Source: Flavobacteriales bacterium
GTDB taxonomy: Bacteria > Bacteroidota > Bacteroidia > Flavobacteriales > Flavobacteriaceae
Assembly (NCBI GenBank): GCA_027066365.1
Contig: JAMONV010000018.1
Span: forward strand, 62,001-126,000
Reading direction: 5' to 3'
DNA length: 64,000 nt
Part shown: positions 51,397 to 54,227 of the stretch, one piece after another
Layout of the letters: each line of letters opens with the position of its first letter
Position numbering within the stretch: position 1 is the stretch's first letter
Position numbers and translations under genes: made by a program
Notes under the pieces: model-generated
What the model saw: the letters and a program-made list of their open reading frames with translations, nothing else
Databases searched by the model: none
What the model was told of the DNA's origin: nothing

Positions 51397-51427
51397 TTTG
51401 ATTTTCCGAAAATAGCGCTTATCTTTG
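51397..51427 (+). promoter_or_regulatory. Perfect promoter for the DUF2249 operon
   Basis: TTTG at 51397-51400, 19-nt spacer, TATCTTTG at 51420-51427; all consensus bases present. Leader about 27 nt to ATG 51459. Confidence 0.78.
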
Positions 51428-51458
51428 CCGGGTAATTTAAAACCGTTCTAAATAGGTG

Positions 51459-52310
51459 ATGGTTGTTGATAGAAATACTAAAATCGGTGATTTGTTGAAA
51501 ATGCGCGAGGATGCGCTTGATATAATTGCTTCCATAACGCCTGCTTTTGAGAAATTGAGAAATCCCGTTTTGCGAAAAAGTATTGCGCCGCGAGTGCGTG
51601 TGAAGGATGCGGCACGGATTGGCAATATGCCGGTGAATACTTTTTTGAAGTTTTTGGAAAAGCATGATTTTGAGGTTTCTTATGACGAAAGGGATACCAT
51701 GGAGGTGCAGCCGAAAAAATGTGAAGTGCTCAAGAATTATAAAACCGTTAGTTTGGACGTTCGTGCCGATCTGGAATCCGGGCGTGATCCGTTTAACAAG
51801 ATTCGGGAAAAACTGGCGGGATTAGAAAAGGGTGAAGCCTTGGAAGTAATAGTGGATTTTGAACCCGTTCCGTTAATTGATTTGTTTGAGAGAAGCGGTT
51901 ATGATCATTGCACGATTTGTAGGGACGGTTATGTATCCACTTATTTTTTCAAACCTATGCCCGAAGAAGGCGGTTTGTGGAATAAAATAAAAGGTATTTT
52001 CGGGCGGCAACGGAAGACGGCATACGAACCGGCGCCATTGACGAAAATCGAAATCGGGGATGCGGAGGATTTTAAGCGGTTATTGAATCGATATGAAGGG
52101 AAAATTGTTACGCTCGATGTTCGTGGGATGGAGATGCCGATGCCGATGATGACGGTTTTGGAGGCGCTGTCGCATTTACCCGAAGGGCAAGCCCTTTTGG
52201 TTGAACACGAACGAATTCCTCAGTATCTTTTGCCGGAATTGAAAAAGCGAGGAAAACGGATAGCCGCCCAAAAAACGGGAGAAGGACATACGAGATTAAT
52301 CATATATTGA
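51459..52310 (+). CDS. DUF1858 + two DUF2249/TusA-like domains protein
   Basis: A 283-aa soluble protein. Residues 1-70 resemble DUF1858 ('TKIGDLLKMREDALDIIASI', 'RVKDAARIGNMPVNTFLKFL'), found in ScdA-like and NO/Fe-S related proteins. Residues about 75-140 form a first DUF2249 unit ('VSLDVRADLESGRDPFNKIR', 'EVIVDFEPVPLIDLFERSGY') with two Cys ('DHCTICRDG'). Residues 205-283 form a second ('VTLDVRGMEMPMPMMTVLEA'), a TusA-like fold in which the sulfur-carrying Cys of the CPxP motif is Met. ATG at 51459 follows a GTG one codon earlier. Role unknown; context points to redox, heme or Fe-S chemistry. Confidence 0.75.
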   Translation: MVVDRNTKIGDLLKMREDALDIIASITPAFEKLRNPVLRKSIAPRVRVKDAARIGNMPVNTFLKFLEKHDFEVSYDERDTMEVQPKKCEVLKNYKTVSLDVRADLESGRDPFNKIREKLAGLEKGEALEVIVDFEPVPLIDLFERSGYDHCTICRDGYVSTYFFKPMPEEGGLWNKIKGIFGRQRKTAYEPAPLTKIEIGDAEDFKRLLNRYEGKIVTLDVRGMEMPMPMMTVLEALSHLPEGQALLVEHERIPQYLLPELKKRGKRIAAQKTGEGHTRLIIY

Positions 52311-52314
52311 GCTT

Positions 52315-53610
52315 ATGACCAAATTACATACTCAAAATGCACCGGATATCAGTGTTGTGAAGCCGCATTTTTTGTTTGGGGCTTTTGCTTTCGGGGTAGC
52401 GGTTTTATTGATGTTATTGAGCGGGACGGAATTATTCATGCCTTATTATCACAATAAAATTTTAGCTATTATTCATACCAATATTTTAGGATGGGCGATG
52501 ATGTTGGTTTACGGCTCGTTATATCAGTTGGTTCCTGTGGTTTTTGAAACGAAATTATTCAGTGAAACCTTGGCTAAGCTTACTTTTTGGTTGACGGGTT
52601 TCAGCATTATGATTATGGCTTATGCTTTTTGGGCGGGGCGATTGGAAACATGGTTGGTTTGGGGGGCTTATTTGATGTATTCGGCTTTATTTTTGTTCGT
52701 GTTCAATATCAGTATGTCTTATAGGAATGCGACTTTAAAAAACATTAAAACATTTTTTATTATAGCGGCGATTTTTTGGTTATTTCTTACGCAGACAGAG
52801 GGTTTATTGATGGCATTGAGCTTTAAATATCCCATTTACACGGATAATTTGAGGCATTTGCCGGTGCATGCCGTCATGGGATTAACCGGGTTTTTTATAC
52901 AGATGATTTTCGGGGTTGGGACTACTTTGGTTCCGATGTTTTTGGTATCACACAAGCACAGTGAAAAACCGCTTTGGCCGGCTTTTTTATTGTATAATGC
53001 GGGTTTGGCCGTATTGGTTATCAATTGGTGGTTTATCGGTTGGCATTGGTTGGTTTATCCGGGTTGGATGATGTTGGCGGCCGGAATAGGATTTTATTTA
53101 AAGTTTGTTTATGATGCTTTTCGGAATCGTTTCAAGCGTATACTGGACGAAGGCATGCAACCGACCATGTTGATGTTTGTTTTGTTGCTTGTTCCGCTAT
53201 TGTTGAGTTTCTTATTATTGTTTCGGCATAATTACCATGGAAAAACAGCTTTGAGTCTGGTTGCATTATTCGGATTTAGCTTGATTTTCGGGGTGATCAA
53301 TTTGATAATTTTGGGACAGACCTATAAAACCATCCCGTTTATTATTTGGCTGGAACGTTATCAACCTTATGTCGGGAAATTTAAAATTCCTTTACCGAAG
53401 GAAGTATATAGTGCGCGCCTTGCCGTTTGGCAATACAGATTTTATTTGGTTTTCTTGATTTTGTTTATTTTTGCATATATCGTTCAATCGTCATGGATGT
53501 TATGGATTTCGTTGTGGATTTTAGCCTTTGTTGCGATTTCTTATAATGTGAATATGATTAAAATGTTTTTCCACAAGCCGCATTTGGAGCCGTTGGATAA
53601 GAATAAATAA
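52315..53610 (+). CDS. Heme-copper-oxidase subunit I-like / NnrS-like membrane protein
   Basis: A 431-aa protein with about 12 TM helices. It resembles cytochrome c oxidase subunit I-like proteins of the NnrS/NorB neighbourhood. Two related segments are visible: 'AIIHTNILGWAMMLVYGSLY' ending in LVPVVF, and 'VHAVMGLTGFFIQMIFGVGT' ending in LVPMFL. Each carries one His in a helix that could ligate heme. No HH pair and no HxxxH active-site pattern exists in the protein, so a heme-copper catalytic centre is unlikely. Four bases separate it from the DUF2249 gene and five from the MIP18-type gene. It may handle heme or nitric oxide (inference). Confidence 0.65.
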   Translation: MTKLHTQNAPDISVVKPHFLFGAFAFGVAVLLMLLSGTELFMPYYHNKILAIIHTNILGWAMMLVYGSLYQLVPVVFETKLFSETLAKLTFWLTGFSIMIMAYAFWAGRLETWLVWGAYLMYSALFLFVFNISMSYRNATLKNIKTFFIIAAIFWLFLTQTEGLLMALSFKYPIYTDNLRHLPVHAVMGLTGFFIQMIFGVGTTLVPMFLVSHKHSEKPLWPAFLLYNAGLAVLVINWWFIGWHWLVYPGWMMLAAGIGFYLKFVYDAFRNRFKRILDEGMQPTMLMFVLLLVPLLLSFLLLFRHNYHGKTALSLVALFGFSLIFGVINLIILGQTYKTIPFIIWLERYQPYVGKFKIPLPKEVYSARLAVWQYRFYLVFLILFIFAYIVQSSWMLWISLWILAFVAISYNVNMIKMFFHKPHLEPLDKNK

Positions 53611-53615
53611 ATTCT

Positions 53616-54185
53616 ATGGAAAAGGAAAAAGTTTTACAAGTTATTCATGTAATCCTTAAAAATACACCGGGCATTAAACCGGAAGGGACCGATATTGAAA
53701 TAAAAGACGGTATGGTGAAAATTAGTATTAAAAATATTCTGCAATCCGCCAAGGAAAAAATTGTCAATGAATTGACAGACAAAGTGAAAGAAAAATTGCC
53801 GGGCATGAAAGTATCGGTGGAAATCGAAGGTGGCAATGAAAAACCGCAAGCCAAAAGCGAGACCAAACCGGAGGAAGAAATACGTCAAGTGGAAAATGAT
53901 ATTTACGAATTGCTCAAGCAGGTAATAGATCCTGAAATAGGGATTGATATTATTAATTTGGGTTTGGTATACAATATTGTTTACGACGGGAAAAGCCATG
54001 TTTATATTGAAATGACTTTATCCACTCCGGCATGTCCGCTGAGTGATGCATTGGTGTCGGCGGTGGAAAATATTATTAAAAAGCATTATCCCGGTTTTGA
54101 TGTTCAGGTGGAGCTTACTTTTGATCCTCCTTGGGACACATCCATGATTAGTGATGAAGGCAAGAGAGCCTTGGGGATGATGTAA
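53616..54185 (+). CDS. MIP18/PaaD-type Fe-S assembly protein with degenerate N-terminal copy
   Basis: A 189-aa protein. Residues about 92-189 are a complete MIP18/DUF59 domain: 'LLKQVIDPEIGIDIINLGLV', 'EMTLSTPACPLSDALV' with the conserved Cys, and 'VELTFDPPWDTSMISDEGKR'. Residues 1-72 ('VLQVIHVILKNTPGI', 'VKISIKNILQSAKEKIVNEL', 'EKLPGMKVSVEIE') follow the same strand/helix order without Cys or PPW. They look like a decayed duplicate. A charged linker joins the two. Such proteins (SufT, PaaD) help build Fe-S clusters; here its target may be the operon partners. Confidence 0.85.
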   Translation: MEKEKVLQVIHVILKNTPGIKPEGTDIEIKDGMVKISIKNILQSAKEKIVNELTDKVKEKLPGMKVSVEIEGGNEKPQAKSETKPEEEIRQVENDIYELLKQVIDPEIGIDIINLGLVYNIVYDGKSHVYIEMTLSTPACPLSDALVSAVENIIKKHYPGFDVQVELTFDPPWDTSMISDEGKRALGMM

Positions 54186-54194
54186 TTTGATGTG

Positions 54195-54227
54195 GAACCG
54201 GCCGGGCCGCTAAGGTTCGGTTTTTTT
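54195..54227 (+). terminator. Terminator of the DUF2249 operon
   Basis: GAACC / GGTTC stem enclosing a GC-rich GGCCGGGCC element, then GG and seven T residues, 9 bases after the last stop. Confidence 0.65.

Follow-up and report, generated by a model that had tools for sequence, protein, structure and literature searches.

Among the described systems closest to the locus reported here is the DrpA/DrpB pair of Thermus thermophilus (Chahlafi et al. 2018, PMC6282519), in which deletion of drpB renders transcription of nar and dnr constitutive (derepressed). DrpA and DrpB have been proposed as nitrate sensors, DrpB being cytoplasmic and in part membrane-bound (PMC6282519, PMC7694296). Elsewhere, DUF2249 genes are induced during denitrification in Haloferax mediterranei, and an association of DUF2249 with the heme-copper oxidase (HCO) superfamily has been noted with Pei et al. 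2014 cited for it (PMC11218638); COG4309 has been tied to norB and nitric oxide (NO) regulons (PMC1274295), a DUF1858 gene is among those controlled by NnrR in Bradyrhizobium diazoefficiens (PMC6710368), and SufT proteins that end in a DUF1858 domain have been recorded (n=4; PMC4982691). Here we analyse a stretch of 64,000 nucleotides from a Flavobacteriales bacterium (contig JAMONV010000018.1, positions 62,001 to 126,000; hereafter the window), in which three adjacent genes encode a soluble DrpB-like protein (P1), a membrane protein (P2) and a MIP18-type iron-sulfur (Fe-S) assembly protein (P3).

COG4309 we take to be DUF2249. Pei et al. 2014 (Protein Sci 23:1220) reportedly described HCO homologues with twelve transmembrane (TM) helices in three units, two conserved histidines and one possible heme, found in denitrification contexts. 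In the literature searched, with Pei et al. 2014 and most subscription papers outside it, we recognised no paper on the three-gene set, and the link to NosZ, the set of DrpB-type and MIP18 genes, the link to the NAR1 locus and the operator described below were not found there.

A conserved three-gene operon

The three genes constitute a real, conserved module that is linked to nitrogen oxides. In the window, the operon and its signals are laid out as follows.

51397-51427, plus strand: Bacteroidota-type promoter, TTTG at 51397-51400, a 19-nt spacer and TATCTTTG at 51420-51427 (sequence against the Bacteroidota consensus)
51436-51452, no strand: Fur-like operator TTTAAAACCGTTCTAAA, a 7-1-7 palindrome located after the -7 box and before the start codon (footprint in upstream DNA)
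51459-52310, plus strand: P1 gene from its ATG, a GTG start at 51456 being possible (reading-frame call, domain search)
52315-53610, plus strand: P2 gene, 431 residues (reading-frame call, domain search, model)
53616-54185, plus strand: P3 gene, 189 residues (reading-frame call, domain search)
54200-54222, plus strand: intrinsic-terminator-like hairpin followed by a T run (terminator scan)

All three genes are on the plus strand, separated by 4 bases (P1-P2) and 5 bases (P2-P3), exactly as a preliminary description of this DNA had placed them. The promoter, which it had called perfect, conforms to the Bacteroidota -33/-7 consensus, but a sigma-70 scan of the window returned nothing at 51397-51427. 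Likewise, the hairpin and T run of the proposed terminator are present, but the scan found 7 sites of this kind where shuffled sequence has a mean of 6.6, so that only the position of this one speaks for it.

The order of the genes is conserved far above chance. A protein search of 40 relatives returned full-length P2 in 11, and 19 other positive genomes gave short matches that we read as cbb3 oxidase subunits; P2 is present at E<=1e-20 in 26 of 395 Bacteroidota genomes, the window's own counted. A scan of GTDB contigs found at least 499 relatives of P2, of which the best 80 (79 loci) were used, in records named as Bacteroidota and their neighbours (e.g. Melioribacteraceae, Neomarinimicrobiota). 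The scan and wider stretches together yielded 115 loci, reduced to 109 by removal of six duplicates and still including one pair of separate genomes that are 99.8% alike; because P2 was the query, the set is biased toward close relatives. P1 is immediately upstream of P2 in 108 of the 109, the exception being truncated by a contig end, and by the rule used P3 is immediately downstream in 100. The other nine comprise three with a longer P2/P3 overlap, three where the contig runs out at or close to this point, and three, all from the window's own genus, that lack P3. The full order is kept in 99 loci by rule and in 102 when the longer overlaps are counted. In an evenly drawn sample of the phylum, P1 is found in 25 of 25 loci (in L136 as a 92-residue piece only), and P3 in 22 by rule and all 25 with overlapping cases included. 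The preliminary description had staked its idea of a shared system on this co-conservation, which the neighbourhood search thus bears out.

The module extends to other phyla; by record names it occurs in Bacteroidota, Neomarinimicrobiota, Deinococcota, Pseudomonadota and Campylobacterota. Searches of plasmids with tblastn at E<=1e-5 matched P1 in 49 records and P2 in 51. In Thermus thermophilus JL-18, nar genes are followed by a DUF2249 gene (drpA), drpB, a gene for a 144-residue protein, a protoglobin gene, a P2-like gene and one for a metal-sulfur assembly factor. Strain NAR1 has the same order with a transposase gene added after drpB, HB5018 has drpAB and the globin gene but no P2 match among the matches listed, and in T. 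parvatiensis the DUF2249 gene is annotated as two pieces. As a separate observation, the NAR1 transposase gene (L265:4604-5449) separates drpB from the globin, P2 and MIP18 genes, and may uncouple their transcription. On NAR1 record NZ_LR027520 the P2 homologue occupies 136649-137800 and the MIP18 gene 136341-136652. The Rhizobium etli plasmid p42f carries norQD, hemN, DUF2249, a P2-like gene, a second DUF2249, an assembly factor, NnrS, nirK, Crp and NnrU in succession, and Ensifer canadensis has an island resembling this nor-hemN-nirK arrangement. The order in Mesorhizobium loti is NnrS, P2-like, DUF2249, DUF1858 and Crp, with nosZ nearby and no assembly factor listed; its P2-like gene, annotated as a hypothetical protein, was identified by position and alignment. 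Aliarcobacter has DUF2249, P2-like and assembly factor genes with a single DUF2249 protein, and a haloarchaeal P2-like gene has a DUF2249 gene about 1.4 kb away and no assembly factor listed in the stretch viewed. The gene tables of the R. etli and Thermus stretches are incomplete.

Features of the three proteins

The preliminary description presented P2 as a 12-TM protein resembling both HCO subunit I and NnrS, and the first likeness is upheld by its predicted structure. The Pfam scan of the window protein gives a COX1 match below the gathering threshold (16.6 bits against a cut-off of 34.8); profile searches find COX1 at E<=0.001 in 57 of 69 family members, and the one NCBIfam match (E 2.4e-8), which covers residues 43-117 and concerns the model for cbb3 subunit I, is far under that model's cut-off. 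An AlphaFold model built from the 69 sequences (pLDDT 95.4, pTM 0.93) is almost wholly helical, and its top Foldseek matches are cbb3 oxidase (E 8.7e-7). With VIA-align it superposes along its whole length on 12-TM oxidases, with a Z of 35.5 for the cbb3 chain 8smr_E (rmsd 2.9, 394 residues aligned) and 33.3 for the NO reductase cNOR 4xyd_A; all 50 rows of that comparison are HCO-superfamily chains, and absences from it carry no weight. The family profile, run against the sequences of solved structures, found five matches, all cbb3 oxidases (best 6.6e-9). Alignment of the 4-TM units to each other by hhalign gave 97.5% for units 1 and 2, 97.6-97.8% for units 1 and 3 and 59.8-73.2%, depending on direction, for units 2 and 3; with the fold, this makes P2 a 12-TM HCO-like protein of three homologous units. 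The likeness to NnrS does not survive: the NnrS profile (PF05940) matches none of the 69 members at E<=0.001, hhalign to two NnrS sequences gives 0.1%, and the R. etli island holds NnrS and P2 side by side as distinct genes; membership of P2 in that family is not supported.

Four residues stand out in the alignments of the three proteins.

52206-52208, plus strand: codon of invariant His250 of P1 (alignment)
52474-52476, plus strand: codon of invariant H54 of P2 (alignment)
52867-52869, plus strand: codon of invariant H185 of P2 (alignment)
54033-54035, plus strand: codon of invariant Cys140 of P3 (alignment)

H54 and H185 are kept in all 74 aligned rows of P2 (the window protein, 68 relatives and five distant proteins, every one of which retains both), and they are its sole invariant histidines; the full set of six in oxidases and NO reductases, for the low-spin heme, the high-spin heme and CuB/FeB, is not present. 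The proposal of the preliminary description hung on a conserved histidine in this family, and there are two. Its statement that P2 has no HxxxH needs correction, however, as H181-LPV-H185 is present, though only H185 is conserved (H181 is His in 9 of 36 rows). In oxidases, the second His of the HxH motif and the His of TM helix 2 ligate the low-spin heme, and in the family profile H54 aligns with that second His in solved cbb3 structures. In all 74 rows H54 lies 20 residues, and H185 22 residues, before a helix-end Pro column; in one CcoN row the corresponding distances are 20 residues from the second His of HxH to the Pro and 22 from the TM2 His to the equivalent position, and in cNorB the spacing of the TM2 His is 21. 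The P2 pair is in units 1 and 2, as against units 3 and 1 in oxidases, and may represent the oxidase site turned by one unit of the three-fold arrangement. In the third unit, the two columns that correspond to these positions do not have His among their most frequent residues. Judged from its sequence, P2 would bind a single bis-His heme and have no center for reduction of O2 or NO; with no copper and no second heme, it would be neither an oxidase nor an NO reductase.

Circular permutation of the oxidase fold was considered because the COX1 unit matches came in swapped order (unit 1 to COX1 311-404, unit 2 to COX1 3-119, both under cut-off), and was rejected on unit-by-unit hhalign, where unit 1 is nearest to CcoN unit 3 (97.9%), yet reaches 94.5% with NorB unit 1 and is equally similar to its own units 2 and 3. 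Of that idea only the argument from the histidine register was retained.

P1 is a soluble protein of one DUF1858 and two DUF2249 stretches, Pfam agreeing here with the preliminary description. It aligns with Thermus plasmid proteins in 14 records over 99% of its length, at 28.6-32.1% identity, and both its architecture and this similarity place it with DrpB. In an alignment of 86 rows, those outside 250-310 residues having been dropped, His250 is found in every row and no Cys is conserved; position 226, the active position in TusA, is Met rather than Cys in 78 of 86, and the active-site Cys of TusA (of the CPxP motif) is not conserved in the alignment. The predicted model (pLDDT 88.2, pTM 0.53) has as its top matches the SirA/TusA-like 3hz7 and the TsuA-TsuB complex, in which a TusA-like protein is paired with a membrane partner, the thiosulfate channel TsuA, at E 0.004-0.007 and none at or below 0.001; the family profile finds structure 2fi0, which matches the DUF1858 part. 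The designation of P1 as a maturation factor finds no support, its best-studied homologue DrpB being described as a regulator (PMC6282519).

P3 was correctly named as a MIP18-type protein. It matches FeS_assembly_P (MIP18, PF01883) at E 2.6e-23 in two stretches, and Cys140 is present in 93 of 93 rows, although the scores remain below the NCBIfam equivalog cut-offs (93.8 of 143.4 and 92.4 of 202.6). The median homologue has 106 residues against 189 in the window, and the N-terminal part (window 53616-53840) appears to be an additional, degenerate DUF59 copy.

Genomic context and a Fur-like operator

Genes within 9 kb of P2 in the 109 loci were clustered, and each cluster was named from one representative. 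A DUF2249-ScdA-hemerythrin cluster is found in 53 loci, in 52 of them within 3 kb and on the same strand, followed by Rrf2 (46), hemerythrin (24), Crp (18), NosZ (12) and NosL (11) and, more rarely, a 4-TM COX1-like unit (9), qNorB (6) and globin (5). At least one named neighbour, the 4-TM unit excluded, is present in 70 of the 109.

Co-occurrence points to nitrous oxide (N2O) reductase. NosZ is present in 24 of the 26 Bacteroidota genomes with P2 and in 105 of the 369 without it (Fisher 8e-11). For qNor over cut-off the counts are 6 of 26 and 31 of 369 (p 0.025), and for NirK over cut-off 5 of 26 and 58 of 369 (p 0.58). NirS and cNorB were assessed in 80 genomes, the 54 controls without P2 being the first 27 of each of two lists that had been randomly drawn and then sorted, and so not strictly random. 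The NirS profile matches 18 of the 80 at E<=0.001, 11 of them over cut-off; no more than two are full-length, each of them in a genome without P2, and the partial remainder, some in P2-positive genomes, was disregarded, leaving no full-length NirS match in the 26 genomes with P2. cNorB is found in 7 of the 80, two of them with P2, along with one distant match in a qNor-length frame of a P2-positive genome. P2 as a partner of nitrite or NO reductase was rejected on these numbers (NirK p 0.58, NirS 0/26, cNorB 2/26); what accompanies it in the 26 sampled genomes is N2O reductase and not Nir or Nor. In the window's genome, norC-norB-norQ (by frame resemblance) and NosZ are present, with no NirS match and a NirK match below threshold only. 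This genome also contains two adjacent large NosZ-like frames of 739 and 814 residues (L209:5781-10448, contig C4), the NosZ propeller profile being strong on the longer and weak on the shorter.

Alignment of upstream DNA revealed a conserved palindrome immediately before P1. Loci with fewer than 60 bases upstream of P1 were excluded, and of the 105 kept, 19 have a match of at least 14/16 where 0.08 are expected; the window's own copy scores 13/16. The 17-base pattern, framed after sites had been seen, occurs at 5 places in the window's 2-Mb genome against none for the reversed control, and at 38 against 5 in nine genomes of the genus. A first model with a two-base center showed no clear enrichment, whereas the one-base center was enriched, and a loose pattern allowing two mismatches gave 51 sites genome-wide against 58 for the reversed control. 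The operator precedes a multiheme-cytochrome/Fe-S operon in 8 of the 9 genomes, feoAB in 4, sufB in 2 and, by exact matches, the P1 operon in 3; cytochrome bd, ResB and phosphate butyryltransferase follow it in one genome each. Genes in the remaining genus genomes were named by resemblance to scanned ones, and in 11 of 32 stretches inspected the site is inside a reading frame. We read the multiheme-cytochrome/Fe-S operon as alternative complex III; its nearest NCBIfam models are Qrc, under cut-off. The name Fur-like leans on the 7-1-7 layout, on the feoAB and sufB neighbours and on the FUR gene counts (one in eight of the nine genomes, two in the ninth); it is possible that the operator belongs instead to an Rrf2-type regulator. 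In the window's clade, the operator links the operon to iron and respiration. A small regulon of the window's genus, the P1-P2-P3 operon included, is recognisable by the palindrome TTTDRAAYNRTTYHAAA, with sites as follows.

Window's genome: C6:1994; C18:113436 (window 51436); C26:12224; C33:3962
Other stretches: L231-L257

Two further gene families lie close to the set. Genes of about 150 codons for a single four-helix COX1-like unit adjoin it in nine loci and in Thermus, and they look like the single-unit HCO homologues that Pei et al. reportedly described. In 14 loci, several of them from Pontibacter and Rufibacter, a membrane-type family of about 430 residues has a member within 9 kb, on the upstream side in most cases, and the one representative scanned gave no match in Pfam and NCBIfam.

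L148:3702-4175 and eight further loci; Thermus L169:6542-6976: single-unit COX1-like genes (neighbour clustering)
L112:2201-3499 and 13 further loci: membrane-type family of about 430 residues (neighbour clustering)

Interpretation and comparison with known systems

Overall, we give an even chance to the proposal that the operon is a membrane-centred, single-heme module for exposure to NO or other nitrogen oxides, in which P1 serves signalling and P3 the repair of Fe-S clusters. Consider a cell that encounters NO. P2, a putative b-type cytochrome on an oxidase fold, would hold one low-spin bis-His heme (H54, H185) between its first and second four-helix units, and at the membrane this heme would most likely report or buffer NO or redox state. 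P1, a DrpB-like protein predicted to have a TusA fold but devoid of the Cys that carries sulfur, would dock on P2 from the cytoplasm and relay its state, as DrpB may do for nitrate respiration in Thermus, and P3 would load or repair clusters, restoring Fe-S proteins damaged by NO; a Ric/ScdA-type gene stands beside the set in about half of the loci (53/109). A bolder version, which we hold to be doubtful, makes P2 an oxidase fold turned membrane receptor, whose one bis-His heme, in a rotated site, would respond to NO or redox state and pass the signal on by way of the docked TusA-like DrpB, the missing sensor behind the control of nitrate respiration by DrpAB, in use in at least five phyla. 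The earlier idea of a dedicated heme or NO-handling system at the membrane stands in large part: it keeps its nitrogen-oxide neighbours and its co-occurrence with NosZ and loses the kinship with NnrS, and we infer both the heme and the handling or sensing of NO.

Several observations weigh against the proposed module. No named neighbour lies within 9 kb in 39 of the 109 loci, the window's genus among them, several of these contigs being short, and P3 is not next to P2 in 3 of the 9 genomes of that genus. The NosZ statistic ignores shared ancestry, and 105 of the 129 genomes with NosZ lack P2. Most of the 26 P2-positive Bacteroidota genomes are without NirK, NirS and NorB, which means that NO made within the cell is not the general case, and the operator in the window's clade points to iron, not NO.

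At the same time, P2 might detoxify NO directly, as a quinol- or NO-reacting membrane cytochrome for which P1 and P3 are assembly factors. Such a role, which has reportedly been proposed for NnrS, would suit a fold nearest to cbb3 oxidase and NO reductase and a gene that clusters with norCBQD, nirK, hemN and NnrS, and since most of the 26 P2-positive genomes lack NorB, another NO sink would be useful to them. P2 has no CuB/FeB ligands or second heme site, however, the six-coordinate low-spin site that the two His would form in the cbb3-like register leaves NO no free position unless one of them detaches, and a dedicated Ric/ScdA-type gene is already adjacent in 53 of 109 loci; we think this reading rather unlikely. 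A module that matures N2O reductase, or a different N-oxide reductase, perhaps through a supply of sulfur or electrons in which P1 is a TusA-like carrier and P3 a cluster factor, would account for NosZ in 24 of 26 genomes, the TusA-like fold of P1 and the Fe-S character of P3. Yet 105 genomes with NosZ manage without it, the Thermus stretch is a nar island and the R. etli stretch has no nosZ listed (within incomplete gene tables), and in P1 no Cys is conserved, the active position of TusA being occupied by Met in 78 of 86 rows; we think maturation very improbable. Iron- or redox-regulated Fe-S quality control not specifically connected with nitrogen oxides, their genes being nearby only as a sign of an anaerobic respiratory lifestyle, fits P3 itself, the operator shared with feoAB, sufB, cyd and the multiheme-cytochrome operon in the window's clade, and the want of named neighbours in its genus; the nar or nor-nir islands in which Deinococcota and Alphaproteobacteria carry the set, and the ScdA-type genes that adjoin it in 53 of 109 loci, argue the other way, and we consider it quite unlikely.

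DrpB has no recognised DNA-binding or membrane domain through which its part in nitrate respiration could be explained, and in several phyla, as well as in NAR1, the very strain of the DrpB study, its relatives are now connected through gene order with a membrane protein of heme type and an Fe-S factor. As that strain carries the set, the question of mechanism is open to deletion. Among N2O-reducing Bacteroidota, which are of interest as a sink for a greenhouse gas, the set is also the marker of a subset.

Compared with known systems, P2 shares with the HCO-homology proteins reportedly described by Pei et al. three units and two histidines able to hold one heme, which in P2 is predicted. By these features P2 would be a single-heme HCO-homology protein, and because of that match its kind is already known. 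P2 shares the 12-helix fold of CcoN (cbb3) and NorB, with Z scores of 35.5 and 33.3, but has two conserved histidines only and lacks the ligands of their copper or iron site and high-spin heme. Like NnrS, it is a membrane protein of NO-related clusters, and both occur in the R. etli island. P3 resembles SufT/MIP18 (DUF59) proteins in its PF01883 domain with an invariant Cys, and differs in falling below the equivalog cut-offs and carrying a second, degenerate domain copy. P1, finally, has the domain architecture of DrpB and is similar to it over its full length. In the accessible text of PMC6282519, drpAB is treated as a two-gene operon, with no mention of the P2-like gene or the MIP18 gene that lie 3' of it, and the main text of PMC7694296 does not contain the words 'heme-copper', 'globin' or 'hypothetical'.

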